Shown here in pieces: positions 3,166-32,503 of a stretch of 32,535 nucleotides of DNA. This stretch comes from an uncultured beta proteobacterium (GTDB lineage Bacteria; Pseudomonadota; Gammaproteobacteria; Burkholderiales; Burkholderiaceae_C): contig CAIJOK010000082.1 in NCBI GenBank assembly GCA_903822205.1, positions 1 to 32,535 on the forward strand. Direction: 5' to 3'. The position numbers and the translations under genes were made by a program. The notes beneath the pieces were generated by a model. The model had not been told where the DNA came from, did not search any database, and saw nothing but the letters and a program-made list of their open reading frames with translations. The first letter of the stretch is position 1. Each line of letters starts with the position of its first letter.

Positions 3166-3286
3166 ATTATGGCACGGCGGCAGGCTGGGTGACGTGGGGT
3201 TGTCGGTGGACAGTGGTCCAATGCCAATTGTTCGCGGAAGAAAATCGATGCAAAACGCAAACAAACAAGAAAAATTATCAAAATAT

Positions 3287-3315
3287 GTCAGACGACCCAG
3301 AATTTTGCGTATAAT
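3287..3315 (+). promoter_or_regulatory. putative promoter of the signalling cluster
   Basis: A perfect TATAAT lies at 3310-3315, with a weak -35 candidate (TGTCAG or GTCAGA near 3286-3292) 17-18 bases upstream. The expected transcript start, near 3322, leaves a leader of about 20 bases before the ATG at 3344 and rules out the longer in-frame start at 3119. The heptamer GTCAGAC occurs at 3287-3293 and again at 3325-3331, flanking the -10 box, and might be an operator. Confidence 0.5.
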
Positions 3316-3343
3316 CTGGTCATCGTCAGACACTTACCACATT

Positions 3344-3982: not shown

Positions 3983-3999
3983 CCCATGATGCAGGCCAC

Positions 4000-5195: not shown

Positions 5196-5339
5196 TTCCC
5201 TACCAGCATATTCAGGACTGACGCAATAGTTGTCCCTGCATGGCGTGCCGACACAGGCGGTGCAAGTGATACGGCTCGACGGCATCACACCGCCGGGGCA
5301 GATTTGCGTGAGACCTAACATAGAGAAAGCTCCTAAGCC

Positions 5340-6215: not shown

Positions 6216-6265
6216 ACGCCCCCGCGCCTCATTCAACATACTCTTTTTTAACTAAGCCGCTTATC

Positions 6266-6643
6266 ATGTCAACATCCCTGCCCACCGTTCTCATCGTGGA
6301 TGATCACACCGACATCCGCCGCCTGCTCAGCATCACACTGGGCAGAGAGTTTCACGTTATTGAGGCCGAAGACGGCCAGAGTGCCTTGGTCGCCGTGCGC
6401 AACCACCACCCCCGTGCGGTGCTGCTCGACGTGATGATGCCGGGCCAGATGGATGGTATGCAGGTGCTTGATGCCATCAAGTCGTCCCCCGATACCTGCA
6501 ACATTTTGGTGGCCATGATCACCGCACGGGGTCAAGATGCCGACCATGAGGATGCCAGACAGCGCGGTGCAGATGCCTACTTCATCAAACCCTTCAGCCC
6601 TGCTGGGGTGGCAGCGTGGGTGCGCAGCAGGCTGCTTGTGTGA
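6266..6643 (+). CDS. single-domain response regulator (CheY-like)
   Basis: A 125-residue stand-alone receiver domain with no output domain. Visible features are the acidic pair in LIVDDHTD, phosphoacceptor Asp55 in VLLDVMMPGQMDG, the Thr/Ser position in MITARG, and Lys108 in YFIKPF. The start is the ATG giving [13 protein letters not shown]; a longer in-frame start would overlap the preceding HDOD gene. Its TGA overlaps the GTG of the following kinase gene, so translation of the pair is probably coupled. It could shuttle phosphate between the kinases here and the Hpt or HD-GYP proteins downstream, by analogy with Spo0F/CheY-type proteins; this is an inference. Confidence 0.88.
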   Translation: MSTSLPTVLIVDDHTDIRRLLSITLGREFHVIEAEDGQSALVAVRNHHPRAVLLDVMMPGQMDGMQVLDAIKSSPDTCNILVAMITARGQDADHEDARQRGADAYFIKPFSPAGVAAWVRSRLLV

Positions 6644-8565: not shown

Positions 8566-8576
8566 GAGAAACTGCC

Positions 8577-10691: not shown

Positions 10692-12895
10692 ATTTCGTGC
10701 AATCACAGAACTTTTCGCGTCAATACAACCGGATGGTTCTGTTGCTGGTGGCCATCGTGCTGGGGGTCGTCAGCCTGAATTACTGGAAAAACATGATGGC
10801 TCTGGACCACGGGGTTCAGATCAATCTGGCGGGTCGCCAACGCATGCTGACGCAACGCATACACCGGTTGTTGTTGCAGATTCATGGCACCTCGTCACAA
10901 AACTTACTCTTGCCGCAGCACGTTGTGGCGCTAGACACAGCAGCCAAGCTGTTCAACGATACCTTGCAGGGCTTTACCTACGGAACGCCAACACGCAACA
11001 GTGCCAATCAAGCTGTGCAATTTGACCCCATCGACGACCCTGGAATCCGTGGCACGCTGGGCAATGCCCAGGCGCTATGGCGAGGTTATATGCCCTTGTT
11101 ACAGGCGCTCACAAGCCTGCCAACACCTGACAACGTGCAGGCAGCCTTGGCTTATGCCGATCGCCATTCTGAACAACTGCTTGAGCTGATGGAGCAACTG
11201 ACCACCCAAATGACGTTTCACAGTCAGGCACACGCACATCAGTTGCTTTGGCTTGAGGGCTTGTCGTTGACATTGCTCCTTCTGCTGCTTGTGTGGTCCT
11301 TGTCACTCAAACGTCAATTGAATTTGGACGCACAAGCCAGAATCGAGGGCCTTCAACAACAAGTTGCCCACAGTGCGACAGAGCTGCAATCGGTCACCCG
11401 TCAGATCGACGATCTGATCGAAGTCAGCCCTGATATGGTGTGGGAAAAAGACACCATCGGGGTCTATCAAAGCTGCAATTTGCCTTTTGAAAACCACTTT
11501 GGATTAAGCCCCGGTCAGATCATCGGCAAAACCGACTTTGATCTGGTGTCCTATGACTTGGCCCAAACCTACCGTGAGAGCGACCGCCAGGCCATCGCTG
11601 CACGCCAACCCACCCGCCTTGAAGAATGGCACACCCCGGCCGGCAGCAACGATGCCTGTCTGTATGAAATCATCAGATCTCCCATTCGCGATGTGACCGG
11701 CAAATTAACAGGACTGCAATGCGTTGCACGCGACATCACCGAACGAAGAGCGGCTGAGACCGCTTTAGCCGCAGCAGATAGCCATCGACGCATGCTTGAG
11801 CTGTGCATTGCCAAACTCAATGACGTGGTGGTGATCACAGAGGCTGACGCTGTCGACGAACCCGGGCCGCGCATCGTGTTTGTGAATGATGCCTTTGAGC
11901 AATTGACCGGCTACAGCCGAGACGAGGTCATCGGCCAGTCCCCCCGTCTGTTGCAGGGCGCAAAAACACGTCGCAGTGAGTTAAGCCGCATCCGCGATGC
12001 TTTGAGGGCCTGGAAAAGTGTGCAAACCGAACTGATCAATTACAAAAAAAACGGCGATGAGTATTGGACCGAGATCAACATCACCCCGGTGGCCGATGCC
12101 ACAGGCCGATTTACCCGCTGGATAGCAGTGCAGCGCGACATCACAGCGCGCAAAAAAGTCGATGCCGAGATGCTGCTGATGTGTGACCGTGCCAATGAAA
12201 GTTCACGGCTCAAGTCCGAGTTTTTGTCGGCCATCAGTCACGAAATGCGTACGCCCATGAATGCTGTACTGGGTATGGCGCAATTGCTACTCAAGACCCC
12301 ACTGACGAACAGACAAACCTTGTACGTCAACCATATCTTTGAAGCCGCCACAAACTACGTACAGGTCATCAACAAAGCCCTAGATTTCTCAAGCATGGAA
12401 GGGGGCCATCTGGTCATTGAATGGCTGCCGTTTGATCTGCGGGCATTGATGGCAACCCTGGAGCTATTCACAGCACCCAAAGCGCAGGCGAAACGTCTGA
12501 CGCTGCACTGCACCATCGACCACACACTGCCGCAGCAACTACAGGGGGACGAACGCCGATTGCGCCAATGCCTGCTGATTTTGCTGGACAACGCTGTCAA
12601 ATTTACTGCCAAAGGGGGCATTGTCCTGAATGCCCGTGCGGTGTCTCGGTTAGGCCAAGTGTGGTTGCGGCTGGAGGTGACCGACACCGGCATCGGCCTG
12701 GGCGACGAGGTTCGGGAACGCTTGTTTCACCCCTTTGTTCAGGGCGAAGGCGGCATGACGAGGCAGTACAGTGGCATTGGGCTGGGCCTCGTAGTTTGCC
12801 GGCAACTGGTTGAGCTGATGCAGGGCCGCATGGATGTGGACAGCACACCTGACCGCGGCAGCACTTTTTGGCTTGAACTGCCGATCAGGGGGTAA
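10688..12895 (+). CDS. PilJ/NarX-like sensor, double-PAS histidine kinase
   Basis: A 735-residue membrane kinase, probably starting at a TTG that overlaps the preceding TGA; a GTG at 10697 and an ATG at 10733 are alternatives, and none has a good Shine-Dalgarno. TM1 lies at about 14-33. It is followed by the signature INLAGRQRMLTQRI (about 45-58) of the PilJ/NarX-type N-terminal sensor family, some members of which detect nitrate. TM2 is at about 184-205. PAS1 (about 235-355) and PAS2 (about 375-490, with NDAFEQLTGYSRDEVIGQSP) follow. PAS2 looks LOV-like but has no photoactive Cys (RLLQGAKTRR follows). HisKA carries His518 (ISHEMRTPMNAVLGM); HATPase motifs are LLDNAVKF, VTDTGIGLGDE and GIGLGLVVC. 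Nitrate as ligand is a guess from the family. Confidence 0.88.
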   Translation: MNFVQSQNFSRQYNRMVLLLVAIVLGVVSLNYWKNMMALDHGVQINLAGRQRMLTQRIHRLLLQIHGTSSQNLLLPQHVVALDTAAKLFNDTLQGFTYGTPTRNSANQAVQFDPIDDPGIRGTLGNAQALWRGYMPLLQALTSLPTPDNVQAALAYADRHSEQLLELMEQLTTQMTFHSQAHAHQLLWLEGLSLTLLLLLLVWSLSLKRQLNLDAQARIEGLQQQVAHSATELQSVTRQIDDLIEVSPDMVWEKDTIGVYQSCNLPFENHFGLSPGQIIGKTDFDLVSYDLAQTYRESDRQAIAARQPTRLEEWHTPAGSNDACLYEIIRSPIRDVTGKLTGLQCVARDITERRAAETALAAADSHRRMLELCIAKLNDVVVITEADAVDEPGPRIVFVNDAFEQLTGYSRDEVIGQSPRLLQGAKTRRSELSRIRDALRAWKSVQTELINYKKNGDEYWTEINITPVADATGRFTRWIAVQRDITARKKVDAEMLLMCDRANESSRLKSEFLSAISHEMRTPMNAVLGMAQLLLKTPLTNRQTLYVNHIFEAATNYVQVINKALDFSSMEGGHLVIEWLPFDLRALMATLELFTAPKAQAKRLTLHCTIDHTLPQQLQGDERRLRQCLLILLDNAVKFTAKGGIVLNARAVSRLGQVWLRLEVTDTGIGLGDEVRERLFHPFVQGEGGMTRQYSGIGLGLVVCRQLVELMQGRMDVDSTPDRGSTFWLELPIRG

Positions 12896-12939
12896 AAATG
12901 TTGAAGGGAAACGTAAATACCAAATGTGCAAAACACCGC

Positions 12940-12975
12940 GATCACGATCACGATCACGATCACGATCACGTTCAC
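12940..12975 (+). repeat. hexanucleotide tandem repeat (GATCAC)n
   Basis: Five perfect GATCAC units (12940-12969) and one changed copy GTTCAC (12970-12975) sit in the 136-base gap between the PilJ-type kinase and the hybrid kinase. The run ends 56 bases before the hybrid-kinase ATG. Each perfect unit contains GATC. The array could vary in length by slippage and change the distance between upstream control sequence and the ribosome-binding site. Confidence 0.9.
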
Positions 12976-13031
12976 ACGACGGGGGCCTTGACCAAAACGT
13001 CCCACCATTTTTTTGACACTGGAGCACATCC

Positions 13032-16000
13032 ATGAACAAATTGATCAGTTTTCTCGAAAAAAAGCCACTGGGAACCCAATTGCGCTGGGGCATCGGTACG
13101 CTGCTGGGCATTGCCTTATTGCTAGGCGGACAGTCCATCTACGGTGCGCGTCAGCAAGCCATTCAGATCAGGCACATGTATGAAGTCGATCTGCTGGGTG
13201 TGTCTCACATCAAAGAGGCCAATATCCACTTGATGGAGATCGGGCGATCGCTGCGGCAAATGATGTTGGCACCCAATGCGTTGGAGCGGTCTGAAGCCAG
13301 ACGCACGCTTGAGTCGGCACGTGATGAGCTGTTGTTACACATCGAATCGAGCAAGGCGCACGTTGTTCAGCATGAAAACCAGCATCTGCTGGAAGCCACC
13401 CAAAACATGGTGGTGCGTTACCTGCGAAATGTGGATCAGATTGTTACGCAGGTGAACGCCAATCGAGAGTACAGGGTGGATGCCACCGCAGGTCTGCTCT
13501 TCGAGGCTGACAACGTCAACGTATTTGAAGAAACGCATCGGCTGATGAGTGAGCTGGTCAAAAACAAAGAGGTCGGAGCAATGCGCGCTTGGGAAAATTC
13601 CATTGCCTTTGCCAATACCACTGAGCGGATCAGTCTGGCCTTGTTGGTGATTGGACTGACGACGGGTTTGGGCGTGGGGCTGCTACTGGGGGTTGCGGTG
13701 CGCTTGCCGCTGGATCGGCTGCGCCTGAGCATTGACGGCCTGGCCCGTGGTCAACTTGAACTTGCCGTGCCACACACAGATTTTAAAAACGAGGTGGGCG
13801 ACATGGCACGCGCAATCACAGTGCTTCGTCAGACCGCTGTCGATGCTGAAACTTTGCGCTGGGTCAAATCTGGGGTGAACGATATTTCTGCCAAAGTTCT
13901 GTCCATCGACCGGCTTGAGACCTTTGCCTCTGTGCTGATGGCGCAATTAACGCCCATGGTTGGGGCGCAGACCGGCCTGTTGTATGTTCAGGACATCCAA
14001 AAAAACCACTACGCCTATGCCGGCGGGGCCGGCGTGGCTGACGCTTCCAAACTTATCCCTTTTTTTGGCGTCGATCAGGGTCTTGTGGGGCAATGTGCCC
14101 GCCAGGTCGTCCCCATCACCTTGAATCAGATCGATCAACACGACTTGCGGGTGCAGTCTGGCCTGGTGGATGCCATGCCGCGCACCGTGTCTCTGTTGCC
14201 CGTGGTCAGCGTGGGCACGGGCATGGTGATCGCCGTGCTCGAATTGTGCAGACTGGACAGCCCCAGTGCCCGTCATCACGCCCTGCTGTCAGCCATGATG
14301 CCGCTGATCGCGCTTAATCTTGAAATTTTGGAGCGCAACCGTCTCACCCGTGAATTGCTTGCCACAACCCAGGCCCAAGCCTGTGATCTGGAACGTTCAG
14401 AAGAGGAAATGCGGATGCAGCAAAATGCCCTGAGAGAGCAATCCCTGCAATTGCACCAACAGAATGAAAAAATCACGGAAGCCGCCGAGAAAGCTGAGCT
14501 TGCCACCCGCGCCAAGAGCGAATTTTTGGCCAACATGAGCCATGAAATTCGCACCCCCATGAACGCGGTGATCGGTATGTCGCATCTGGCACTCAAAACC
14601 GATCTGTCGGATAAACAACGTGACTACGTCAGCAAGATCAATTCTGAGGGCAAGGCCCTGTTAGGCATCATCAACGACATCTTGGACTACTCCAAGATGG
14701 AAGCCGACAAGATGACGCTGGAGTTGGCACCATTCTGGCTGGACAACGTGCTCGACAGCGTGTGTACGCTGGTGGCGCAAAAAGCCCATGAGAAAGGCCT
14801 AGAGTTTTTGATCCGGGTGCAGCCCGATGTACCCCAGTCGCTGGTGGGTGATGCCATCCGCTTCAAACAAATTTTGACCAATTTGACCAACAATGCCATC
14901 AAATTTACCGAACGCGGCCAGGTCAATCTGACGGTGGCAGTGGCGCAGCATCCCAAAACCCCGCATGGGCAAGACGGGCAACTGGATCGTATTCAGTTGC
15001 GGGTGTCGGTTCAAGACACTGGCATAGGCATGACAGCAGAGCAACTCAGTCACCTGTTCACCTCGTTTTCCCAGGCTGACAGCTCGACGACGCGCCGTTT
15101 TGGAGGCACCGGTTTAGGCCTGGCAATCTCCAAACGCTTTATCGAGATGATGGAAGGACAGATCGATGTGGTGTCTGAGCTGGGCGTTGGCAGTACGTTT
15201 AGCCTGACTGTCTGGATGGACCAGTCAGCCCAGCAAACACGGTCTCCTTTGATGACCGAGGCCGATCGCAGTGTGCGCGTGCTGGTGGTGGACGATAACG
15301 ATGCGGCACGCCAAATTTTGACCGAGCAGTTGACCGGTCTGGGCCTGCGTTCCGATACCGCCTCAAGCGGTCAGGCGGGTTTGCACGCTTTGCACAGCGC
15401 TGATCTGGCTGACCCCTATGAACTGGTCTTGATGGACTGGAAAATGCCCGGTATGGATGGCATTGAGGCCACCCGTCGCATCGTTCAGGATGCCACACTG
15501 GCGCACCACCCTGCGGTGGTGATGGTCACCGCATTTGGGGCTGACGAGGCCAGAACTGCTGGATTGATCGCAGGTGCGAGTGCGTTTTTGGACAAACCGG
15601 TCAGCCAGTCGCGCCTGTGGGACACCTTGGCTGGCATGATTCGGCCCGAGACGGTTGCTTTGGGGGATGTCGCGTTGCAAGCGGTCAACACCGGTCAACT
15701 GGATGGTTTAAGCGTGTTGTTGGTCGAGGACAACGAGATCAACCAGCAAATTGCACGCGAACTGATGGAGTCCATGGGCGTGCTGGTCACCTTGGCAGGC
15801 AATGGACAGCAGGCGCTGGACTTGCTGCAAGCCGCAGCGCAACCCCTGCCGTGGTCGCTGGTACTGATGGACTTGCAAATGCCGGTGATGGATGGCCACA
15901 AGGCAACGCTGATCTTGCGCCAACAAGATCGCTTCAAAAATTTGCCCATCGTTGCTTTGACCGCCCACGCCGCCACCCATGAGGCCGAGCGCTGCCTGGC

Positions 16001-16808
16001 TGAAGGCATGAACGCCCACCTGACCAAGCCGATCGATCCGGACGAGCTATTCATGTGTCTGGCGCAGTGGGGCAAACCGGTGTCTGGCCCGGGCCGTCAC
16101 CTGGCGGCGAATGGTGTTGCACATCAGCCTGTCATGCCCGTCCATTCTGCGCAGAGCGCGACTGTGTCAATAACACCCATCGTGCCTTCGTTCCAGATTG
16201 AAGAGGTCAACGTAGCCAGTGGTTTGCGCCTGTGTGCCGGCAACTTGAATCTTTACATGGACTTGCTTGTCAAGTTTTTGCACAACATCAGCCTGTTGCC
16301 TGCGCAGTTACAAGAGGATATCAACCAGCAGAAATGGGAGCAGGCAGAGCGTACTGTTCACAGCCTGAAGGGCGTGGCGGCCAACATCGGCGCTGAACGG
16401 TGCAGTGCGCTAAGTGGCGATCTGGAACAGGTTCTGAGCCAGGCAGTGGTGCAGGGTTACCTGGCCAACGATCCTGCGCAGCTTGTCGCCCCTTTGCTGG
16501 AACACCTGGGGCAACTGGCACAAAACATGCAAACGGTACTGGCCTCTGAGACGCAACTTGCGCCTTCTGCCAAGACGACACCGAGCGAGCCAGTGGATGC
16601 AAAGCAACTGCAACAGGTGATCCAACAATTGGCTGATTTACTTCAAGCCGATAACGTCGAGGCCGAGCTGCTGCTGCAATCGCAAGCGCTTGTGCTGCGC
16701 TACGGCCTGGGCGGCCAGGCCTTTGATCTGATGGAGGTCCAAGTGCGTGATTTTGATTATTCTGATGCGCTTGACACGCTGCAAGAAGCCACGTCGGTGA
16801 CACCGTGA
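13032..16808 (+). CDS. hybrid sensor histidine kinase (4HB-HAMP-GAF-HisKA-HATPase-REC-REC-Hpt)
   Basis: A 1258-residue BarA/EvgS-like phosphorelay kinase. GGAG seven bases before the ATG supports the start. Domains in order: TM1 (about 18-38), a periplasmic four-helix-bundle-like sensor (about 40-195), TM2 (about 198-222), HAMP (about 223-275), GAF (about 290-435), a coiled coil (about 440-490), HisKA with His504 ([18 protein letters not shown]), HATPase ([35 protein letters not shown]), receiver 1 with Asp802 ([13 protein letters not shown]), receiver 2 with Asp947 ([13 protein letters not shown]), and a C-terminal Hpt with His1110 ([12 protein letters not shown]). All phosphotransfer residues needed for a His-Asp-His relay are present. 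The Hpt may pass phosphate to the single receiver, the HTH receiver or the HD-GYP protein that follows 43 bases downstream. Confidence 0.93.
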
Positions 16809-16851
16809 TGACAATGTGATGACACATTTCAACCCAAAATAGGGATACGCC

Positions 16852-18033
16852 ATGGACTTGTTTTTGCCCGTCAAACCTACCGTGTTGATCGTGGATGACA
16901 CGCCAGCTAATTTGTCACTCCTGGGCGGTTTGCTTCATGAACATTACACCGTCAAAGCAGTCAACCACGGCAACAAAGCCCTCAAAGTGGTCAGCCGAGA
17001 GCAGCCTGATCTGATCTTGCTGGATGTGATGATGCCCGACATCAATGGCTATGAAGTGTGCCGCAGACTCAAGGCCAATGTGCATACCCGGCACATCCCC
17101 GTCATTTTTTTGACCAGCAAGACCGACATTGAGAACGAAGAGATGGGCATGTCTCTGGGGGCGGTTGATTACATCACGCGGCCTATCAATGCGCAGGTAT
17201 TGATGTCACGGGTCAAGGCACATTTGGTCAATGCGTCCAACGCCCGCACCATGCGGGTGAACAACGAATACCTTGAGTTTGAAGTGAGCAAACGCGCCAA
17301 AGAACTGGTGACTCTGCAAAAAGTGACCATCCTGGCGCTGGCGTCCTTGGCCGAGGTTCGCGATGTCGAGACCGGCAACCACCTGTACCGCACCCAAAGC
17401 TACATCCAGGCACTGGCCCACAAACTGCAAGACTACCCCCGTTTTTCGAGCTACTTGAGCAGCACGATGATCGACATCATCGTGCAGTGTGCACCACTGC
17501 ACGACATCGGCAAGGTGGGCATCCCGGACCGGATATTGCTAAAACCCGGTCGCTTTGAGCCTCACGAATACGAAATCATCAAAACCCACCCCACGCTGGG
17601 GTATGAGGCTCTTTTGCAAGTGCAGGCGGCCTCGGATGATTCGGTCTATTTTCTTGAGATAGCCCGTCAAATCGTCTATTCACACCACGAAAAATGGGAC
17701 GGAACGGGCTATCCGCAGGGCCTAGCGGGTGATGAGATCCCGATCCCGGCCCGACTGATGGCACTGGCAGATGTCTATGATGCGCTGGTCAGCCCTCGCG
17801 TCTATAAGGCTGCCAAAAGCCACGCCGATGCCACCGCCATCATCATCAGCGGCAGCGGTCAGCATTTTGACCCTGACATTGTTGCTGCCTTTGTTGCGCT
17901 GGGCGATGAATTTCAGGAGATCGCAAAGCGCTTTGCCGACAGCGTCCACGGCCTGCACTCCAAGGCACTGTCTTTGTCGCGTGCAATCAGCAAGGCTTTC
18001 GCTGACGAACGCTCTGCACCCACGGCGAAGTGA
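16852..18033 (+). CDS. receiver/HD-GYP response regulator, c-di-GMP phosphodiesterase
   Basis: A 393-residue RpfG-like two-domain protein. AGGGA six bases before the ATG supports the start. The receiver (about 8-125) has IVDDTPAN and phosphoacceptor Asp58 ([15 protein letters not shown]). The normally invariant receiver Lys is Arg110 (DYITRPIN), a conservative but unusual change. A helical linker leads to the HD-GYP domain (about 155-350) with His217-Asp218 ([11 protein letters not shown]), [17 protein letters not shown] and [13 protein letters not shown], so the metal site and GYP motif are complete. HD-GYP proteins hydrolyse c-di-GMP to pGpG or GMP and usually favour motility over biofilm. 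It is probably the main enzymatic output of the cluster. Confidence 0.93.
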
Positions 18034-22382: not shown

Positions 22383-22469
22383 TACGCCCATTGCCATTCG
22401 GCATTCACTATTTGCATCCTTGCACACGATTGGCCGGTCGGCTTGATCGTGTGTTGGTGCAGCAGTCCG

Positions 22470-22498
22470 GGCCACAGTGCAAACTGTGGCCTTTTTTT
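22470..22498 (+). terminator. rho-independent terminator after groEL
   Basis: GGCCACAG (22470-22477), loop TGCAAA, CTGTGGCC (22484-22491), then seven T residues (22492-22498). An eight-base-pair perfect GC-rich stem plus T run is a textbook terminator. It separates the chaperonin operon from the following defence-like operon. Confidence 0.92.
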
Positions 22499-22565: not shown

Positions 22566-25500
22566 TTGAAATCAGGCATCAGGGACAACAAAACACGCGG
22601 CCACGTGGCTGATTTTTTACGCGACAAACTGACCAGCGGCAGTCACCTGTCGGTTGTGTCGGCGTACTTCACTATTTACGCATACCAGGCACTGGGCGAT
22701 CAGCTTGACAAGCTTGCATCACTCAGATTCTTGTTTGGCGAACCCCAATTTATCCAGACGCTGGACCCGGACAAAACCGACAAAAAAACCTTTAGGATAG
22801 AAGACGAAGGGCTGACGCTGTCCAACCGGTTGCAACAAAAAGAAGTGGCACGCCGTTGCGCACAATGGATCACGGACACGGTAGAAATTCGATCCATTCG
22901 TGCGTCCAATTTGCTGCACGGCAAGCTTTACCACATTGACGATGGCAAACGTGAACATGCCCTGATGGGAAGTTCCAACTTTACCCAGCGCGGTCTTGGA
23001 TTGTCTGCATCCTCCAATATTGAGTTGAATATGGTGGTCGATAGCGACCGCGATCGTAGTGACCTCAAAGCCTGGTTTGATGAATTATGGAATGACATTG
23101 CATTGGTGGAAGATGTCAAATCCAGTGTGCTTGAATATCTGGCACAGCTCTACGTGGACCATGCCCCTCAGTTCATCTATTTCAAGACACTGTTTCATAT
23201 CTTTGAAAAGTTTTTGTCGGGTCAAGCCGAGCAGGCGCAGTTCTTTGACAAAACGGCCATCACAGATACTGACATCTGGCAAACCCTGTTTGAATTTCAA
23301 AAAGACGGGGCCAAAGCAGCCATTCAAAAGATAAGCACGCACAACGGCTGCATTTTGGCCGACAGCGTGGGGCTGGGTAAAACCTATTCTGCCCTGGCCG
23401 TCATCAAATATTTTGAATTACGCAACCACCGTGTGCTGGTGTTATGCCCCAAAAAGCTGCGTGAAAACTGGACGGTTTATCAGGGCAGCAACATGACCGA
23501 TCTCAATCCCTTTGTGAAAGACAGGTTCAGTTACATGGTGCTGTCTCACACGGACCTATCACGAGAATCGGGCAAGTCAGGAGATATTGATCTGGCCGCC
23601 ATCAACTGGGGTAACTTTGACCTGGTGGTGATTGATGAATCGCATAACTTTCGCAACAACGTCAAAGGCAAACGTGATGCCGACGGCAACACCATCAAAA
23701 AAAGCCGGTATGAGCGGCTGATGCAGGACATTATTAAAGGCGGTGTCAATACCAAGGTCATGCTGCTGTCGGCCACCCCCGTCAACAATGACCTGAAAGA
23801 TTTACGAAACCAACTGTACTTGGTGTTCGGGGGCCAAGACTCTGCGCCCTCTACTGGCATTGCCAGCATCAAACAAACGCTGGATACCGCACAAAAAACC
23901 TTTAATGCATGGGCCAGTCGGCCAGGTGATCGTGACCCCAAAAATCTGATGGATGCGCTGCCTGCGGGTTTTTTTACTTTGCTGGATGAACTGACCCTTG
24001 CACGATCGCGCCGGCATATTCAAAAGTATTACCAGGCATCCATGGCGCAGATGGGGCAATTTCCAAAGCGGGCCAAGCCCAGGGCAATTTATGCGGCCAT
24101 CGACAACAAAGGGCGTTTCCCGACTTATGACAAGCTCAACGAAGAGATTGAAAAATACCAACTGTCTCTGTTCAAACCCTCCACTTATGTCTTGCCCCAA
24201 TTCAAGCATCACTACCAGGGGGACATCAATGTGCGCAATTTCACCCAGGAAAATCGGGAAAAGTTTTTGATTGGCATGATGAAAGTCAATTTTTTGAAAC
24301 GACTGGAAAGCTCGGTCCAATCGTTTGCCATCACCATGAATCGCACGGTGTCCAAAATTGAAAATTTGGAAAAGAAACTGAATGCCTATCAAAAATGGCG
24401 TGATGACCATCTATCCAACCTGCCAGAAAACCCGTTTTTAATCACAACCGATGCCAACGGCGAAAAAGAAAACGAAGACGATGACGATGATGAAGGGGAA
24501 TATGAAAACTTGCGAGAGGCTTTTGAAGTAGGTGCCCTCAAATACCGCATGGAGCATATAGATGTGGACAGGTGGCTATCCGATCTGTCCGCAGACAAAC
24601 AGCAATTGGCCTTGTTGGCCACCAGTGCCGATAGTGTCAGCCCGGACCGTGATGCCAAACTGGGTGAACTCAAAAATATCATTCAAACCAAAATCACCCT
24701 GCCCACCACCAACAGTTTGGGTGAGGCCAACCGCAAAATCATTGTGTTTTGCGCGTTTGCCGACACTGCGGCCTATTTGTATGAGCAACTACAGCCCTGG
24801 GCCAGCACCACACTGCACAGTCATATTGCACTTGTGTCGGGTGGAACACGTCCCAACCGCAGCACATTTGGCACGGCAGACTTTCACCAGATATTGATTA
24901 ACTTTGCACCACGCGCCAAGCAGCGCGCCAAAATGTCCAAAATGCCGCAGACAGGCGAGATTGATATTCTGATTGCCACCGACTGCATTTCGGAAGGCCA
25001 AAATCTGCAAGATTGCGATCTGTTGATCAACTATGACATTCACTGGAACCCCGTGCGCATCATTCAGCGCTTTGGCCGGATTGACCGCATTGGCAGTCTC
25101 AATGACACCATTCAATTGATTAACTTTTGGCCCACGCCTGATCTGAACAAATACATCAATCTTAAAAACAGGGTTGAGGCCCGCATGGCGCTGGTCGATA
25201 TATCGGCCACCAATGAAGACAACTTGCTGACCAGTGCAGAACTGGAAGATTGGATCACACAAGACCTGAAATACCGCGACAAACAACTGATGCGGCTCAA
25301 GGATGAAGTGCTTGATCTGGAAGATTTTAACGAATCTGTCGCGTTGAACGCATTTAGCCTGGATGACTTTCGCATGGATTTGAGCAACTATATTGAGGCC
25401 AATCGCATCAAGCTGCAAGATGCGCCGTTGGGCCTGTACGCTGTGGTATCGGCTGATACCGAAAACGCATCGGTCAAGCCTGGTGTTATTTTTTGCTTGC

Positions 25501-25925
25501 GCCAGCACAAGGGCGCAGAGGGCGTTGAAACCACCAACACAATTAGCACAATTAACACAAATACAACCAACACCATCAACCCTTTAAGCCCGTATTTTTT
25601 GGTCTATATCCAGGCAGATGGCGTGGTGCTTTACAACTTTGCAGCGCCAAAACAGGTACTGGAGATTTTTCGCTCCCTGTGTCAGGGCAAAACAACCCCC
25701 GATGCCGAACTGTGCAAACTGTTCAATGAACAAACCTGCAACGGTCAAGATATGAGCGTGTACTCTGCCCTACTGGACAAAACCGTTGCGGCCATCGTGT
25801 CGCAGTTTGGCCGTAAAAATGCTGCCAACCTGTTTTCTGGCCGAGGGGGCAAATTGATGGATACGACCGCCATTGTCAAAAACAAGACTGATTTTGAATT
25901 GGTCACCTGGTTGGTGCTAAAGTAG
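22566..25925 (+). CDS. phospholipase-D/SNF2-type helicase of a defence-like operon
   Basis: A 1119-residue fusion. The N-terminal phospholipase-D-like domain (about 1-190) has His118-x-Lys120-x4-Asp125 (HGKLYHID) followed by GSSNFTQRGL from Gly135, one complete HKD-type half site as found in PLD-family nucleases. An SF2 helicase/translocase core follows: Walker A (DSVGLGKTYSA, Lys272), DESH box from Asp357, LLSATPVNN, and the C-terminal helicase lobe with ATDCISEGQNLQ and IIQRFGRIDRIGS (about 805-845). An acidic run of Asp/Glu (about 634-650) and an Asn/Thr-rich run (about 988-1006) interrupt it. Start is TTG behind AAGGGGA. The following gene begins 36 bases on. Similar helicases occur with adenine methylases in defence islands; DrmD of DISARM class 1 is comparable. 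Nuclease activity is inferred. Confidence 0.85.
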   Translation: MKSGIRDNKTRGHVADFLRDKLTSGSHLSVVSAYFTIYAYQALGDQLDKLASLRFLFGEPQFIQTLDPDKTDKKTFRIEDEGLTLSNRLQQKEVARRCAQWITDTVEIRSIRASNLLHGKLYHIDDGKREHALMGSSNFTQRGLGLSASSNIELNMVVDSDRDRSDLKAWFDELWNDIALVEDVKSSVLEYLAQLYVDHAPQFIYFKTLFHIFEKFLSGQAEQAQFFDKTAITDTDIWQTLFEFQKDGAKAAIQKISTHNGCILADSVGLGKTYSALAVIKYFELRNHRVLVLCPKKLRENWTVYQGSNMTDLNPFVKDRFSYMVLSHTDLSRESGKSGDIDLAAINWGNFDLVVIDESHNFRNNVKGKRDADGNTIKKSRYERLMQDIIKGGVNTKVMLLSATPVNNDLKDLRNQLYLVFGGQDSAPSTGIASIKQTLDTAQKTFNAWASRPGDRDPKNLMDALPAGFFTLLDELTLARSRRHIQKYYQASMAQMGQFPKRAKPRAIYAAIDNKGRFPTYDKLNEEIEKYQLSLFKPSTYVLPQFKHHYQGDINVRNFTQENREKFLIGMMKVNFLKRLESSVQSFAITMNRTVSKIENLEKKLNAYQKWRDDHLSNLPENPFLITTDANGEKENEDDDDDEGEYENLREAFEVGALKYRMEHIDVDRWLSDLSADKQQLALLATSADSVSPDRDAKLGELKNIIQTKITLPTTNSLGEANRKIIVFCAFADTAAYLYEQLQPWASTTLHSHIALVSGGTRPNRSTFGTADFHQILINFAPRAKQRAKMSKMPQTGEIDILIATDCISEGQNLQDCDLLINYDIHWNPVRIIQRFGRIDRIGSLNDTIQLINFWPTPDLNKYINLKNRVEARMALVDISATNEDNLLTSAELEDWITQDLKYRDKQLMRLKDEVLDLEDFNESVALNAFSLDDFRMDLSNYIEANRIKLQDAPLGLYAVVSADTENASVKPGVIFCLRQHKGAEGVETTNTISTINTNTTNTINPLSPYFLVYIQADGVVLYNFAAPKQVLEIFRSLCQGKTTPDAELCKLFNEQTCNGQDMSVYSALLDKTVAAIVSQFGRKNAANLFSGRGGKLMDTTAIVKNKTDFELVTWLVLK

Positions 25926-25961
25926 ATACGTTTTCATAGATATTTTTAGAGGAGACACACC

Positions 25962-26231
25962 ATGATCGCTACAGCCAAAGTATTTACCACTGGCAACAGC
26001 CAAGCCATTCGACTGCCCAAGGCATTTCGTGTGGATGTTCAAGAAATGTGGATTGACAAAAACGAGGTGACGGGTGAAATCACCCTTAAACCCAAGGATG
26101 ACGAAGATCAGCGCAAGCGCAACTTGGAAGAACTGCTCCGGTTAATCCGTGAAAACCCATTCAAAGAAGACTTCATTCCGCCCCGCGATGATGCGCTTCG
26201 CCCCAGCCCATTTGAAAACTGGATGGTTTAA
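25962..26231 (+). CDS. AbrB/VapB-like DNA-binding protein without a toxin partner
   Basis: An 89-residue protein whose N-terminus (AKVFTTGNSQAIRLPKAFRV, about 4-23) is the swapped-hairpin AbrB fold typical of VapB antitoxins. The C-terminal half is charged (EDQRKRNLEELLRLIRENPF) and in VapB proteins this part holds the toxin. No PIN-domain vapC follows; the methylase gene begins two bases after its stop. It has the strongest ribosome-binding site in the operon (AGAGGAG, seven bases before ATG), which would suit a repressor made in excess. It could autoregulate the operon or be the antitoxin of another gene here. The fold assignment is fairly safe, the role is not. Confidence 0.8.
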   Translation: MIATAKVFTTGNSQAIRLPKAFRVDVQEMWIDKNEVTGEITLKPKDDEDQRKRNLEELLRLIRENPFKEDFIPPRDDALRPSPFENWMV

Positions 26232-26233
26232 GC

Positions 26234-29200
26234 ATGACCGATGCACATCAAAAATACGCCATTCAAACCGCCATTCAGGCATTCGCCGCCAGGCCGTTGC
26301 ACGATGCTGCCACCGCGCTGTTTGCCACTTTGGGCTACACATCCGACCGCTGCATGGCGGTCGATTCGATCGAACAATTTTGCACACAGCATGACCCCGA
26401 TGGTTTGCTCAATCATCCGCGAGCGTGCAAATCACAATGGCAATCGATCCACTTATTGTTTCAATTGACCGACGAAGAACTGTCGCGACACACCACGCTG
26501 TTCAAAGACACCTCCGTCAAGGCCTCCTTGCTCCAGTCCTACGTTTTCTTCGCGATTGAACTGCAACACGGCGATTACGCACGCGGCAAATTGGCCAATA
26601 TGACGCGCCAAATCAACCGCCTGTTTCCAATGCCGGTCATGGTGCTGTTCAAAATTGACACTTATTTGTCGATCGCGGTGATCAACCATCGGCAAAACAA
26701 ACGCGATGAAAGCAAAGACGTTCTGGGCAAGGTCACGCTGATTCAAAACATCTCTATTGCCAAACCTCACCCGGGCCATTTGGACATTCTGGCCTCGTTT
26801 TCCACCGCTGAATTGGCCGCCCGCAACACGCCCATTGGCAATTTTGACCAACTGCACGTCGCGTGGGAAGTCGTTTTTAACGTTGAACTGCTGAACAAAC
26901 GGTTTTATGAGGAACTGTCCAACTGGTATTTTTGGGCGCGCAAGCAAGTCAGCTTTCCGGCCGATCTGGAGCCGGATGAAGGCACACGCAACGCCACCAG
27001 CGTGATTCGCCTGTTGACGCGGCTGATCTTTTGCTGGTTTCTGAAAGAAAAAAACCTCATCCCCGACCATTTGTTTGACCAGGATGCCATACGCTGCGCC
27101 CTGAATTCTGTCGGTGACGAAGAAAGCACTTATTACCACGCCATTTTGCAAAACCTGTTTTTTGCCACACTCAATCAGCCGATGAATGTGGGGGGTGAAT
27201 CTGTGCGGCAATTTGCTGCCGACGGTGCTTTTCATGACAACAAGAACCAGTACGGGGTCAAAACCCTGTACCGCTATCAGAAATACTTTCGCCAAGCCAA
27301 CGAAGCCTTGGGGCTTTTTGCAAACATTCCATTTTTGAACGGCGGTTTATTTGCCTGCCTGGATGCAGAAGATGACAACGGTAAAGTGCGTTATGCCGAT
27401 GGCTTTTCACGCAACCCCAACAAGCAGCCAAGTGTGCCTAACCGATTGTTTTTTGCCATGCCGCAACAGGTTGATTTGAGTGAAGATTATGGGGATGCCA
27501 AAAAAAAGAAGTCCGGTGTTCGTGGCCTGCTGCACATTTTGAACAGCTACAAATTCACCATTGCCGAGAGTACCCCCGTCGAGCAGGAAATTGCGCTTGA
27601 CCCCGAACTGCTGGGCAATGTGTTTGAAAACCTGCTGGCCAGTTATAACCCTGAAACCGGCACCAATGCCCGCCGCCAGACAGGCTCGTTTTACACGCCA
27701 CGCGCCATTGTGGATTACATGGCAGATCAAACCCTACAGGCTTATCTGGCAAATGCCCTGTTGAAAGCCATGCCTGCGGCTGTGGATATCAAAGCGCGGC
27801 TGGCGGTACTTTTTGCCTATACCCACCAGGAACACGCCTTTTCTGATGCAGAAATTGACGCTCTCATCGGTGCCATCAATGCCTGCAACATTTTGGATCC
27901 GGCTTGTGGATCGGGGGCTTACCCGATGGGCATATTGCACAAACTGGTGTTTATTTTGGGAAAACTTGACCCCCACAATGAAAAATGGCGGAGTCGCCAA
28001 GTGGCCAAGGCCGAAGAAATTGAGGACGTGCAGGCGCGTACCTCTGCGGTGCAAGCCATTAACCACGACTTTGCCAACAATGCCCTGGACTATGGCCGCA
28101 AGCTCTACCTGATTGAAAACTGCATTTATGGCGCAGACATTCAGCCCATTGCCATTCAAATTGCCAAACTGCGATTTTTTATCTCGTTGATTTGTGACCA
28201 GCGAACCCACAGCGACAAGTCACGCAATTTGGGTGTGCGGCCTCTGCCCAATCTGGAGACCAAGTTTGTTGCCGCCAATACGCTGCTGGGGCTGAACCTG
28301 CCCAAAAATCGCAGTCTGTTTGAAAACCCCACGGTTGTCCAGCTTGAAATGGAATTGGAGAAAGTGCGCCACCGCTACTTTTCAGCCCAAACCCGAAAAG
28401 ACAAGCTGGCATTGCAACAAAAAGACCGGTCACTCAGCAAACAAATCATTGACGCGCTCAAACAGGATTCTTTTGGCAATGAAGATGTTTATCGCCGCAT
28501 GGCCTGGAACCCGTATGACCACCACCATGTTGCAGATTTTTTTGATGCAGCCAAAATGTTTGGGCCGGAGTTGGAAAATGGTTTTGATATTGTGATTGGC
28601 AATCCACCTTATGTGCAAATTCAAAAATTTTCGGCCGTACAAAAAGCATTATGGGTCGATCAAAAATTCAAAACCTACACCGCCACAGCGGATATTTATT
28701 GCCTGTTTTATGAGCGTGGTGTTCGATTATTAAAAGAGGGTGGACATTTAAGCTATATCACTTCCAACAAATGGATGCGGGCGGGGTATGGGGAGGCTTT
28801 ACGTAGCTTTTTCTGTAAAGATGTGGCTGTTGAAGAAGTGATTGATTTTGGTGGTGTACCCGTTTTTAACGCGGCTGTGGTCGATACCGCCATTGTGCAG
28901 TTAGCCAAATCTGCGCCCAAACCCAGCTTTTCGTCCAGCGTATTAACGCGCAGCTTTACCATTTTGGATTCTTTGTCTGGCTATGTGCATGACAATGCCA
29001 TCGCATTTACGCGGCCTGCCGATGGTTCAACATCATGGGTTGTGATGTCGCCTGAGCGTTTTCGCATCAAGTGTGCAGTAGAGCAGCAGGGCATTCCGCT
29101 TGAAAAATGGCAGATTCAAATCAACTACGGCATTAAAACGGGCTACAACGAAGCGTTTTATATCAGTACGGCGCAGCGTGAAGCGTTCATTGCCAAAGAC

Positions 29201-30088
29201 CCCCGTTGCGCTGAATTGATTGTGCCTTTGCTGCGAGGTCGCTATGTGGGTAAATACGCGACACAGTGGGCAACTGTGGCTGATGAGCAGTGGATGATCA
29301 ATTCGCACAATGGGGTGAAAGAGTTGGGCATTCCGCCTGTGCAGTTGAAGACTGACTATCCCGTGCTTTGGAAACATTTGATTGCACATGAAGCAAAACT
29401 GGTCGCTAGGCAGGATCAAGGTGATCACTGGTCAAATTTGAGAAACTGCGCTTATATTTATGATTTTCAAAAGCCGAAAATCATTTATCCGAATATGACA
29501 AAGTATTTGCCGTTCTACCTTGACACGACAGATCACTTCTTCATTAACGACAAGGCCTTTATTCTGACAAGCGAGTCCGAATCGTTGACCTATTTAACGG
29601 CAGCCTTGAACTCAACGGTGTTCCGTTGCTGCTTCATGGACAACTTCCCCAACCTGGGTGAGGACCGCCGGGAGTTGCGCAAAATCTTTTTTGACAAAAT
29701 TCCCATTAAAAAGACCACTTCGCAGCAAGCAGCCCTGTTTGAGGCGCTGGTATCCATGGTACAGGCCAGCAAAGCGCCGTCTGTTCAATATGGTCATACG
29801 AATCCAAAAAGCATTTCCGCATTTCTCGAGGAAGTGATCGACGCTTGCGTGATGGAAGTCTATTTTGCAGACCACATGGCAGAGCGCCGCCTTGGCATCA
29901 TGGCCCACGTCACGCCCCTGTTAAAAAACTTCGATGCCGCTGCATCGTCTGAACAACAGGTCGCAGCCGCCCAACAGTTCTACGCCTTGGCCAACGACAG
30001 CAAACACCCCATTCGCAACATCCTCATCCGCATTCCAGTCGATAGCCCAGACTTGCTGGCAGTGATTCAAAAAGAAGGGGCGGTGTGA
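26234..30088 (+). CDS. Eco57I-like adenine-specific DNA methyltransferase (type IIG/DrmMI-like)
   Basis: A 1284-residue N6-adenine methylase. The N-terminal 430 residues are of a kind found in large Eco57I-class enzymes (PMPVMVLFKIDTYLSIAVIN at about 133-152, NATSVIRLLTRLIFCWFLKE at about 255-274); I see no certain PD-(D/E)xK nuclease motif there. The methylase core starts with GSFYTPRAIVDYMADQ, then SAM-binding motif I from Asp555 (DPACGSGAYPMG) and catalytic motif IV Asn790-Pro-Pro-Tyr (DIVIGNPPYVQIQKF). The C-terminal 450 residues would be the target-recognition region. Its TGA overlaps the GTG of the ATPase gene. It probably methylates host DNA so that the helicase/nuclease can tell self from non-self. 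Whether it also cuts is undecided. Confidence 0.88.
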   Translation: MTDAHQKYAIQTAIQAFAARPLHDAATALFATLGYTSDRCMAVDSIEQFCTQHDPDGLLNHPRACKSQWQSIHLLFQLTDEELSRHTTLFKDTSVKASLLQSYVFFAIELQHGDYARGKLANMTRQINRLFPMPVMVLFKIDTYLSIAVINHRQNKRDESKDVLGKVTLIQNISIAKPHPGHLDILASFSTAELAARNTPIGNFDQLHVAWEVVFNVELLNKRFYEELSNWYFWARKQVSFPADLEPDEGTRNATSVIRLLTRLIFCWFLKEKNLIPDHLFDQDAIRCALNSVGDEESTYYHAILQNLFFATLNQPMNVGGESVRQFAADGAFHDNKNQYGVKTLYRYQKYFRQANEALGLFANIPFLNGGLFACLDAEDDNGKVRYADGFSRNPNKQPSVPNRLFFAMPQQVDLSEDYGDAKKKKSGVRGLLHILNSYKFTIAESTPVEQEIALDPELLGNVFENLLASYNPETGTNARRQTGSFYTPRAIVDYMADQTLQAYLANALLKAMPAAVDIKARLAVLFAYTHQEHAFSDAEIDALIGAINACNILDPACGSGAYPMGILHKLVFILGKLDPHNEKWRSRQVAKAEEIEDVQARTSAVQAINHDFANNALDYGRKLYLIENCIYGADIQPIAIQIAKLRFFISLICDQRTHSDKSRNLGVRPLPNLETKFVAANTLLGLNLPKNRSLFENPTVVQLEMELEKVRHRYFSAQTRKDKLALQQKDRSLSKQIIDALKQDSFGNEDVYRRMAWNPYDHHHVADFFDAAKMFGPELENGFDIVIGNPPYVQIQKFSAVQKALWVDQKFKTYTATADIYCLFYERGVRLLKEGGHLSYITSNKWMRAGYGEALRSFFCKDVAVEEVIDFGGVPVFNAAVVDTAIVQLAKSAPKPSFSSSVLTRSFTILDSLSGYVHDNAIAFTRPADGSTSWVVMSPERFRIKCAVEQQGIPLEKWQIQINYGIKTGYNEAFYISTAQREAFIAKDPRCAELIVPLLRGRYVGKYATQWATVADEQWMINSHNGVKELGIPPVQLKTDYPVLWKHLIAHEAKLVARQDQGDHWSNLRNCAYIYDFQKPKIIYPNMTKYLPFYLDTTDHFFINDKAFILTSESESLTYLTAALNSTVFRCCFMDNFPNLGEDRRELRKIFFDKIPIKKTTSQQAALFEALVSMVQASKAPSVQYGHTNPKSISAFLEEVIDACVMEVYFADHMAERRLGIMAHVTPLLKNFDAAASSEQQVAAAQQFYALANDSKHPIRNILIRIPVDSPDLLAVIQKEGAV

Positions 30089-31746
30089 GCATACTTCGGA
30101 TTCAACGCATAGAGGCCAAGGCATTCAAAGCCTTCAAACACCTTGATTTCAAGCTCGATGGACGGAATCTACTGGCCTATGGGGCAAATGGATCTGGCAA
30201 GTCGTCGCTGTACTGGTTGCTTTACACATTTTTGCAAAGTGGTCAAAAGCAAACCGACGAGGTGACAAAGTATTTCGATCCAAATCGGGATGAGCGTTTG
30301 TTAAACGTCCACTCAGACTCAACAGACAAAAATCAAGCCCACATCACTGTCACGCTTGATACCGAAGATCACACCGCCAGTACTCGGTACACCATTTCGG
30401 CCTATCAACACGACACGCACAACGTACCAGAAATTGTCAAAGGCAACTTGGCTAGCGACTTTGTTACCTATCGTATTCTGTTTAACTTTTACCGTTTCCG
30501 TAACTCCGAAGCGATTGATTTGTGGCCGGTGTTTGAAAGCGAAATGCTGCCGTTTTGTTATACCACTTCTGAACGTGACTTGGATGGGTTGTGGAAAAGT
30601 ATTCGCTACGACAACTCATTTACACCTGGTGTCCCTGGTCCCGCCAAGAAGCGGTATGACGCTTTTGATGTCCGTGCGACTCGTTTCAACATGGCACTCA
30701 CGCAAGTGCTTGAGTCGATCAGTACGGAAGCACTCAAGTTTTACCGTCAAAATTTCTCTGACGACGACTTGCAGGAAGTTAAATTTGGCATGGTTTTACG
30801 AAGCCCTGTGTCAATGTATGACCGCAAGCAACATCGCTTTGACTGGCCTACCATTGGTTTTGAAGTTCAGTTGGGTGGGCAAAAATTGGATCGCCCTCAT
30901 ACTTTTTTGAATGAAGCGAAATTGACACAGCTTTCGCTGTCTGTGCGCTTTGGTGCTACTTTGGCGCATTTGCAGGATGCCAACACCAAATTGCTGGTAC
31001 TCGACGACTTGCTGATTAGCCTGGACATGGGCAACCGAATGAAGGTGGTGGACATCATCTTGAGCGAAACCTTTGCCGATCATCAAAAAATTATTCTGAC
31101 GCACGACTTGGGATTTTTCAACGAATTCAGGCGACGCATTGCTGGCCATCACATTGGCTGGTCATTCCAGCATTTCAAAAATCCATCGGCTCAAACTGGT
31201 AGTACGCTAATAGAAGCCAAATCTGAAATTCAGAAAGCTGAGGATTATCTGCATGGGCAAAATCTGGACGAAGCAGCTACATGTCTGCGTAAAGCAGCCG
31301 ACGATTCAGCCAAACGCTTGCGCGAGTGGTTGAGCAAAGAGAAATTGCCACCGGGCAAGTTTTTCACCCTGACAGAAAATCTGCGTGAAGCCAAAAATCG
31401 GCTTCTTCTGACCATACCGAAGCAGTTGTACGAGAAGGTTCTAAAGGGTACGCCCATTGATTTGCTTCAAAAGCTGGTTCCCAATAGCGCTGCGGATATT
31501 GAAAAGGAAGCTGATCTTGAACCAGCCGAGCGCGGAAAAATCAACAGTAAACGTGGATCGCTGCGTAAATTGCTGACCGACACCCACTGGAAAGCCATGG
31601 AAAACGTTCGACTAATTGATGATGTTCTGGCATCCACCGAGCGAGTTTTGAATCCTGGTGCCCACGGCGGTGAAACACCGCTCTACGAGTCTGAGGTAGT
31701 GATTGCACTTGACCTCATCAAGCGTTTGGAAAACTGTTTACCATAA
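30085..31746 (+). CDS. ABC-type ATPase with C-terminal HEPN-like domain
   Basis: A 553-residue protein starting at a GTG that overlaps the methylase stop, behind AAGAAGGGG. The N-terminal two-thirds is a RecF/SMC-like ATPase head without a long coiled coil: Walker A GANGSGKSS (about 33-41), signature-like LNEAKLTQLSLSVRFG (about 273-288), Walker B LLVLDDLLISLD (Asp307-Asp308) and H-loop His340 (ILTHD). The C-terminal part (about 380-553) looks all-helical, with EAATCLRKAADDSAKRLREW and then Arg520-x6-His527 (RVLNPGAH). That motif fits the R-x4-6-H pattern of HEPN ribonucleases. PrrC and RloC combine an ABC ATPase with a HEPN tRNA nuclease beside restriction systems, so an abortive-infection role is plausible. 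The HEPN call is an inference. Confidence 0.75.
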   Translation: MSILRIQRIEAKAFKAFKHLDFKLDGRNLLAYGANGSGKSSLYWLLYTFLQSGQKQTDEVTKYFDPNRDERLLNVHSDSTDKNQAHITVTLDTEDHTASTRYTISAYQHDTHNVPEIVKGNLASDFVTYRILFNFYRFRNSEAIDLWPVFESEMLPFCYTTSERDLDGLWKSIRYDNSFTPGVPGPAKKRYDAFDVRATRFNMALTQVLESISTEALKFYRQNFSDDDLQEVKFGMVLRSPVSMYDRKQHRFDWPTIGFEVQLGGQKLDRPHTFLNEAKLTQLSLSVRFGATLAHLQDANTKLLVLDDLLISLDMGNRMKVVDIILSETFADHQKIILTHDLGFFNEFRRRIAGHHIGWSFQHFKNPSAQTGSTLIEAKSEIQKAEDYLHGQNLDEAATCLRKAADDSAKRLREWLSKEKLPPGKFFTLTENLREAKNRLLLTIPKQLYEKVLKGTPIDLLQKLVPNSAADIEKEADLEPAERGKINSKRGSLRKLLTDTHWKAMENVRLIDDVLASTERVLNPGAHGGETPLYESEVVIALDLIKRLENCLP

Positions 31747-31970: not shown

Positions 31971-32417
31971 AGTGGAGCGCCCCAAAATCAGAAATCAGCC
32001 CACCACGTTGCTGTCTTTCAAGAGACGACCATCCGCCGTACCTGGCATAACGAAGCGTGGTGGTTTGCTTTGCATGATGTCATTTTGGTGCTGACCGATT
32101 CGGCTGATGTCAAGCAATACATCAAGAAAATGCGCAGTCGCGACCCTGCACTTGATGCCAACTGGGGTACAACTTGTACCCCTCTTGTCATGTTGGCAGC
32201 CGAGGGAAAAATGCGCGAAACCAACTGCGCCAACACCGAAGGCCTGTTTCGCATCATCCAGTTCATACCGTCCCCCAAGGCCGAGCCTTTCAAGCGCTGG
32301 CTGGCGCAAGTGGGTTACGAACGGGTCAAGGAAATAGAAAACCCTGAGTTCGGACCTCCCCGGAACCTCCACCAAAACGCCATTATTTTTGGACGTAACC
32401 GTTTAGACCCCCTCACC
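31971..32417 (+). pseudogene. BRO-N (phage antirepressor-like) gene remnant
   Basis: A plus-strand frame, open from after the TAA at 31968-31970, translates to sequence typical of BRO family N-terminal domains: HVAVFQETTIRRTWHNEAWW (32001-32060), FALHDVILVLTDSADVKQYI, GLFRIIQFIPSPKAEPFKRW and LAQVGYERVKEIENPE. BRO-N domains occur in phage antirepressors and DinD-like DNA-binding proteins. There is no ATG before the conserved region in this frame; the nearest ATG (31963) is in a different frame, consistent with an indel near the C4A4 run at 31980. Similarity stops after ENPE (about 32348) and the frame runs into the inverted repeat at 32418. So both ends look damaged. The BRO-N call is strong, the pseudogene call moderate. 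Confidence 0.75.
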
Positions 32418-32503
32418 GTCATTCCCGCGAAGGCGGGAATCCAGACTTCATGTGCATCCTTTAACATCCAAAAACACTGGATTCCCGCCTTCGCGGGAAT
32501 GAC
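32418..32503. repeat. dRS3-like inverted repeat pair
   Basis: GTCATTCCCGCGAAGGCGGG followed by AATCCAG (32418-32444) is matched exactly by its 27-base reverse complement at 32477-32503, around a 32-base loop. Each arm contains ATTCCC-N8-GGGAAT, the pattern of the dRS3 dispersed repeats of Neisseria and of similar repeats in other betaproteobacteria. Such pairs form small non-autonomous mobile units or mark recombination points. Confidence 0.85.

Follow-up and report, generated by a model that had tools for sequence, protein, structure and literature searches.

A conserved helicase–methylase–ATPase operon from an uncultured beta proteobacterium, a candidate phage defence locus

The operon studied here occupies positions 22566–31746 of contig CAIJOK010000082.1 (assembly GCA_903822205.1, uncultured beta proteobacterium). 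The window analyzed spans the contig in full (C82, 32,535 bases), and the genome comprises 146 contigs. The operon is conserved and built from familiar parts, namely an HKD-SNF2 helicase, a fused methylase-specificity protein, and an SMC-type ATPase with a HEPN-like C-terminal domain. The first-pass annotation had proposed an undescribed, defence-like operon at this position. Its three large genes were found conserved together in 48 of 66 loci, and on balance we consider a two-layer, PrrC-style, restriction-modification-like phage defence its probable function. No PADLOC (2023; best 25 matches), NCBIfam (2026), or Pfam match assigned the whole set to a named system, and the trio was not described in the open-access literature searched; within this scope the gene set is provisionally unnamed. 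All four open reading frames (ORFs) lie on the forward strand, with intergenic gaps of 36 and 2 bases followed by a 4-base overlap, exactly as first annotated:

22566–25925, + strand, gene 1 (P0001): HKD (PLD)-SNF2 helicase, 1119 aa, TTG start; Helicase_C, SNF2-rel, PLDc_2
25962–26231, + strand, gene 2: putative orphan VapB-type antitoxin (AbrB/MazE fold), 89 aa; MazE/VapB-like
26234–30088, + strand, gene 3 (P0003): Eco57I-like N6-adenine methylase with a TaqI_C-like specificity domain, 1284 aa; Eco57I, N6_Mtase, TaqI_C
30085–31746, + strand, gene 4 (P0004): SMC/Rad50-type ATPase with a C-terminal HEPN-like domain, 553 aa, GTG start; SMC_N
Residues ~368–552 of gene 4: HEPN-like domain; R402, D406, N523, and H527 in the window copy

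Four ATPase homologues (A1) were used as the query, giving the best 80 of at least 122 confirmed genome loci and six loci from the viral collection. From these 86 ATPase loci, 66 were kept; one without an ATPase ORF and 19 with less than 7 kb upstream (contig edges) were dropped, and the methylase still adjoined the ATPase in 10 of the 19 edge loci. A hidden Markov model (HMM) search of the ORFs detected an adjacent methylase in 59/66 loci, an upstream helicase in 54/66, both in 48/66, and neither in 1/66. The methylase was counted as adjacent when it lay −40 to +120 bases from the ATPase start, and the helicase as upstream at any distance ahead of the ATPase within the retrieved locus; split ORFs or accessory genes intervened in some cases, and the adjacent methylase match was no more than a C-terminal piece in a few loci. 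The gene order was fixed and 4-base methylase–ATPase overlaps were frequent across many phyla. Among the 48 full loci, 45 were genome loci and came from Rhodoferax, Agrobacterium, Desulfuromonadales, Desulfobacteraceae, Verrucomicrobia, Bacteroidetes, Sulfurovum, Phycisphaerales, Aminicenantes, Latescibacteria, Chlorobiaceae, and Pseudanabaena, among others. Conservation in other genomes places the arrangement beyond chance. The first-pass annotation had proposed counting how often all four genes co-occur in order; the three large genes did co-occur, while the small gene was not conserved.

Because these loci were picked by their ATPase, the frequency of the helicase–methylase pair without the ATPase is not readable from them. 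A methylase-anchored scan covered 34 loci of the viral collection, of which 12 were counted (methylase HMM above 500 bits, a limit chosen after seeing the scores). In these 12 strong loci the helicase lay upstream in 11/11 with room for it, and the ATPase was found downstream in 4; three of the four ATPase-bearing contigs had already been retrieved via the ATPase. The 22 weaker loci contained a helicase in only two cases, once before and once after the methylase. In the Mantel test, which used 46 of the 48 full loci and the window, the distance correlation of helicase and methylase was r = 0.79, and those of the ATPase with the helicase and the methylase were 0.41 and 0.53; 0 of 2000 permutations reached any of these values. 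From the methylase-anchored counts and the distance correlations we conclude that the operon has a two-gene helicase–methylase core and an optional, less tightly co-varying ATPase gene. The earlier ATPase-HEPN proposal finds support at the sequence level (DUF4145 alignment, R-x3-E...H motif), but the gene is not obligatory.

The operon was patchily present among relatives. A strong methylase match was obtained in 3/101 relatives and 3/398 genomes of the phylum (own genome counted in both), and the ATPase occurred in 1/274 genomes of the class, which was the own genome. With P0004 as the sole query, no match was obtained in viral contigs. In a related genome (G306), groEL and the operon were located on different contigs, and in the Rhodoferax locus L020 groEL was neither of the two ORFs that immediately precede the helicase. 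The groEL flanks of 11 relatives (~1.5 kb per flank, 0.3 kb in one case) shared no DNA with the operon or with the DNA after it.

Gene 4 matched SMC_N at 41.9 bits against a cut-off of 40 (Pfam), and Rad50 chains were its nearest solved relatives. The Walker A motif was present in 82/82 aligned ATPases, the window included. In the C-terminal domain, R402 and H527 were each kept in 82/82 sequences and N523 in 79/82, and the residue preceding the histidine was serine in 64 and alanine in 13. The full R-x3-[ED]...N-x3-H pattern occurred in 80/82. In RloC the corresponding motif is Arg-X3-Glu-X36-52-His, often with serine before the histidine, and substitution of any of the three residues kills activity (PMC2610378); compared with this spacing of 36–52, the glutamate-to-histidine distance in the 80 sequences with the full pattern was 35–131 (median 62.5). 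DUF4145 and PrrC/RloC are both placed in the HEPN superfamily, and a multi-pronged defence is proposed for HEPN genes next to restriction-modification genes, in the HEPN review PMC3710099.

Profile alignment by hhalign of the C-terminal domain against ten DUF4145 stretches gave 78% (E 1.8e-5); the score of an unrelated control was 0.5%. The comparison sets held 10/10 DUF4145 loci (two under the Pfam cut-off), 13/16 RloC-like loci (L130, L135, and L141, broken or partial, were omitted), and 7/8 HEPN loci (L111, with stops, was omitted). At E < 0.5, Pfam detected DUF4145 in 13/44 ATPases (best 0.0079) and HEPN in 5/44 (best 0.00076). The hand-chosen alignment A2 contained 44 of the 82 ATPases, and A3 contained 42 of those 44. 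AAA_13 matched 31/44 members at E < 0.5, and the window ATPase scored 30.5 bits against a cut-off of 36; AAA_13 was found in none of 36 class genomes at 1e-40 and in 16/249 genomes of the phylum. By sequence, the C-terminal domain appears HEPN-like and nearer to DUF4145 than to RloC.

The helicase of the window contained H118-x-K120-x4-D125, GSSN at 134–137, a G-x-GKT Walker A motif, and DESH. HxK...GSxN, Walker A, and DExH were each present in 54/54 aligned helicases, the window included. The top PADLOC model for gene 1 was C3a139 ‘HKD+Snf2’ (424 bits, residues 35–1117); neither this PADLOC name nor Gao_RL was matched in the open-access literature searched. Gene 1 is presumed to be the translocating restriction subunit.

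Plasmid relatives of this helicase family amounted to 527 records. In the five plasmid loci opened (L006–L010), a helicase of the same HKD-SNF2 family, with 39–43% identity, stood beside DUF4391 and a site-specific methyltransferase (5/5), and a DEAD/DEAH helicase followed these genes in 4/5. In the E. coli locus among these the helicase also matched C3a139, and the methyltransferase and DEAD/DEAH helicase scored as type III Mod and Res, respectively. This is another recurring locus built on the helicase family of gene 1, with partner genes that differ from those of the present operon.

The methylase carried NPPY, and the NPP[YF] motif was present in 61/64 and DPACGSG in 62/64 aligned sequences, the window included. 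P0003 scored 383 bits against the PADLOC model REase_MTase_IIG (type IIG). Residues 1–225 matched no Pfam family, and no acidic residue in this region was invariant among 21 aligned sequences (A7; the hand-chosen alignment A8 contained 16 of these 21). The methylase may carry a nuclease of its own in this N-terminal domain (~1–225).

An inverted second copy of part of the methylase was observed after the methylase gene in three loci (L145:12810–13646, L149:12698–13834, and L018:11442–12110). Long inverted repeats accompanied the copies in L145 and L149 (304 nt at 88%; ~100–110 nt at 95–100%); in L018 no inverted repeat was found at the search settings used, and a Mpi-type invertase gene lay nearby. 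This arrangement suggests phase-variable specificity. Tandem methylase-like genes or repeated methylase–ATPase pairs were seen in L072, L080, L089, L091, and L096, possibly through module duplication.

In the two-layer defence that we favour, the fused methylase-specificity protein would place N6-methyladenine marks on host DNA, whereas unmarked DNA would be the substrate along which the HKD-SNF2 helicase translocates and which it cleaves. As a second layer, the SMC-type ATPase would sense failure or engagement of the first layer, through a nucleotide signal, through DNA ends that it binds, or through a restriction complex that has been inhibited, and would trigger its own C-terminal HEPN RNase, leading to a translation stop as PrrC and RloC do. 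The genes with their motifs and conserved order, the helicase–methylase co-variation, and the HEPN-like signature are observed directly. We infer from the protein families that the operon defends against phage, that the HKD domain cuts DNA, which base is methylated, and that the HEPN-like domain acts as an RNase with a trigger of the kind described.

Several observations weigh against this reading. Among the ATPase-anchored loci, 18/66 did not have both partners in position, and several of these 18 matched only the C-terminal part of the methylase; in the strong methylase-anchored set the ATPase was missing from 8/12. Position 406 was glutamate in 81/82 ATPases and aspartate in the window copy alone. 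The family as a whole does not keep the classical Rx4-6H motif; an arginine stood at H−7 in the window and elsewhere in other members. Strict HxKx4D was kept in just 7/54 helicases. In the methylase, the N-terminal acids E82 and D162 were kept in 19/21 sequences and D158 in 17/21. Other families also matched several of the 44 ATPases in Pfam at E < 0.5, in results that do not show match positions within members. Alignment by hhalign gave 0.9% against 13 RloC-like C-termini and 9% against seven PF05168 members, so the HEPN assignment depends on the DUF4145 match and the motif. However, RloC and DUF4145 are each an accepted HEPN family and their sets failed to find each other as well (0.3%), so these misses say little.

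One alternative gives the ATPase a structural role as third subunit of the restriction complex, bridging DNA or sensing ends like SMC/Rad50, with a dead or RNA-binding HEPN-like domain and no abortive layer. Its Rad50 relatives, the aspartate at 406 in the window, and the missing Rx4-6H motif favour such a role. However, R402 and H527 are invariant and E406 and N523 nearly so, which makes a dead domain unlikely, and a subunit absent from two thirds of the strong methylase-anchored loci is not needed there. We regard the structural subunit as an unlikely explanation. A clustering of independent defence genes in islands, with the methylase perhaps acting as a type IIG enzyme that has a nuclease itself, is more doubtful again. 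It would agree with the optional ATPase, whose distances track the other two genes less well, with the type IIG score of P0003, and with the partly conserved acidic N-terminal columns, but the fixed order, the frequent methylase–ATPase overlaps across many phyla, and the co-variation of helicase and methylase argue against it.

The least credible of the alternatives, and one already weakened, is that the operon belongs to DISARM class 1, BREX, or the BREX-related systems as a member that has degenerated or been split. DISARM class 1 comprises drmA, drmB, and drmC with drmD and drmMI, and its DrmD–DrmMI pair joins a SNF2 helicase with an Eco57I-like methylase; BREX type 3 also pairs a SNF2 helicase with a PglX/Eco57I methylase, and BrxHII and BrxXI are named in PMC12839542. 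Similarity to these systems was found, since P0001 matched DrmD models (PADLOC 129 bits, NCBIfam 158 bits), a DrmA model (66 bits), and HmaA (97 bits), and P0003 matched PglX (78 bits, NCBIfam) and DrmMI (74 bits, PADLOC). However, the NCBIfam scores were far under the cut-offs (DrmD 157.6/610, PglX 78.1/500). No DUF499, PglZ, or BrxC match was obtained in the four proteins (Pfam, NCBIfam, E ≤ 0.01), and, judged by eye, none of these cores appeared among the families that recur in at least three loci around the operon. No match to the MZB domain, which we take as a marker of DrmB, was found genome-wide.

Membership of the individual systems was rejected as follows. For DISARM class 1 only helicase-type and methylase-type similarity (DrmD, DrmA, DrmMI) remained, with DrmD far below the NCBIfam cut-off and no MZB domain in the genome; drmC was not sought. 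For BREX, which requires pglZ and brxC/pglY with pglX, P0003 reached 78 of 500 bits to PglX, and PglZ and BrxC were absent from the four proteins, the rest of the genome not being searched. For MADS (mad1–8), P0004 matched mad3 only over residues 5–105 (48 bits) and P0003 matched mad2 at 49 bits, with NCBIfam scores of 24.1/420 and 16.6/720. BREX-related type 2 shares the HKD-SNF2 helicase effector, N6-methylase, and ATPase with the present operon, a combination that speaks for kinship, but its ATPase is DUF499 and it also has DUF3780 (PMC12839542). Pfam found neither DUF499 nor DUF3780 in the four proteins here, and membership of BREX-related type 2 was rejected.

ARMADA combines a BrxHII-like helicase with a PglX-like methylase, the same SNF2 and PglX/Eco57I-like pairing (PMC12458937). 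Compared with DISARM class 1 and ARMADA, the present operon is without a YprA/DrmA or DrmB partner, and its helicase has an N-terminal HKD nuclease domain. PbeABCD/CxC share an HKD-SF2 helicase and an ABC ATPase, sometimes with a methylase, but have DndE and a zinc-hook coiled-coil ATPase (PMC10853773); here no protein was identified as DndE and P0004 has only 553 aa.

The closest likeness of the two-layer reading is to PrrC/EcoprrI and RloC, where restriction-modification-like genes likewise neighbour an ATPase whose C-terminal part bears R-x3-E...(S/A)H residues (with aspartate for glutamate in the window copy). The partner of PrrC/RloC is hsdRMS, whereas the operon here has an HKD-SNF2 helicase and a fused methylase-specificity protein. 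In further contrast to PrrC/RloC, the window ATPase falls under the AAA_13 cut-off, and its C-terminal profile aligns with DUF4145 and not with RloC-like C-termini. We tentatively propose, with rather less confidence than for the two-layer scheme itself, that the helicase and the fused methylase-specificity protein form a distinct, widespread two-gene restriction class, sometimes phase-variable and with optional backup genes, and that PrrC has a DUF4145-type counterpart in the SMC-ATPase-HEPN protein, guarding that class instead of type I enzymes. If true, a restriction machine other than type I would also be guarded by a suicide RNase, as in the principle known from PrrC/RloC. It would also give a name to an operon that the profile libraries used here split, the helicase being listed as a candidate family by itself and the methylase under ‘type IIG’. 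Because the third gene is optional and specificity copies occur in inverted form, the surrounding arms race would be testable.

The first-pass annotation counted the AbrB-like protein (gene 2) as a component of the operon, which the comparison with other loci did not support. Its MazE/VapB-like scores were below the curated cut-offs (Pfam 24.3/24.7 bits; NCBIfam 46/100 and 34/60). L020 and L022 carried an antitoxin and a PIN-domain gene (vapB–vapC) between the helicase and the methylase. In the alignment of the window with L020, the gap coincided with vapC, and the vapB frame of the window terminated in residues resembling the vapC C-terminus. No vapC was found in the window, so the VapBC pair is incomplete there. 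Gene 2 is read as a leftover orphan vapB whose PIN partner vapC is deleted, and not as a conserved operon component.

Fourteen loci with a wide helicase–methylase gap were opened to view the inserted genes. Between the helicase and the methylase, a YhcG PDDEXK gene was found in L023 and L042 (Pfam) and in L027 and L083 (similarity), KilA-N in L031 and L086, and Schlafen AlbA_2 in L046 and L099 (Pfam) and in L057 (similarity). Small HTH regulators recurred in eight loci, one of them profiled. Therefore, vapBC is just one among several gene types inserted at this place.

The operon is flanked by the following features:

22469–22492, + strand: terminator-like hairpin 3′ of groEL that bounds the operon on its upstream side (stem of 10 pairs followed by a T run; pattern match only)
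31998–32363, + strand: truncated BRO-N gene (Pfam Bro-N, E 7e-14)

A scan for sigma-70-type promoters gave 9 sites compared with 9.9 in shuffled sequences, and none lay immediately 5′ of gene 1. The close gene spacing behind the original claim of one transcription unit was as described, but with no promoter-like excess and no site near gene 1, it is from the spacing that a single transcript of the four genes is suggested. The groEL terminator named as the upstream limit agreed with the hairpin. The ‘phage edge’ on the other side was instead the truncated BRO-N gene, homologues of which came directly after the ATPase gene in L019 (85%) and L020 (70%; identity over 122 residues), the nearest two relatives. 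The piece in the window corresponded only to residues 11/12–132 of relatives 300/317 aa long, and is therefore cut at both ends.

The contig ended 789 bases past the operon. Beside the BRO-N remnant, at ~32420–32503, an inverted repeat with arms like attcccgcgaaggcgggaat was recognized by eye, possibly a small transposable repeat. Upstream of groEL, positions 3119–18033 of the window contained consecutive signalling genes that encode response regulators, histidine kinases, one hybrid kinase, and HDOD and HD domains.

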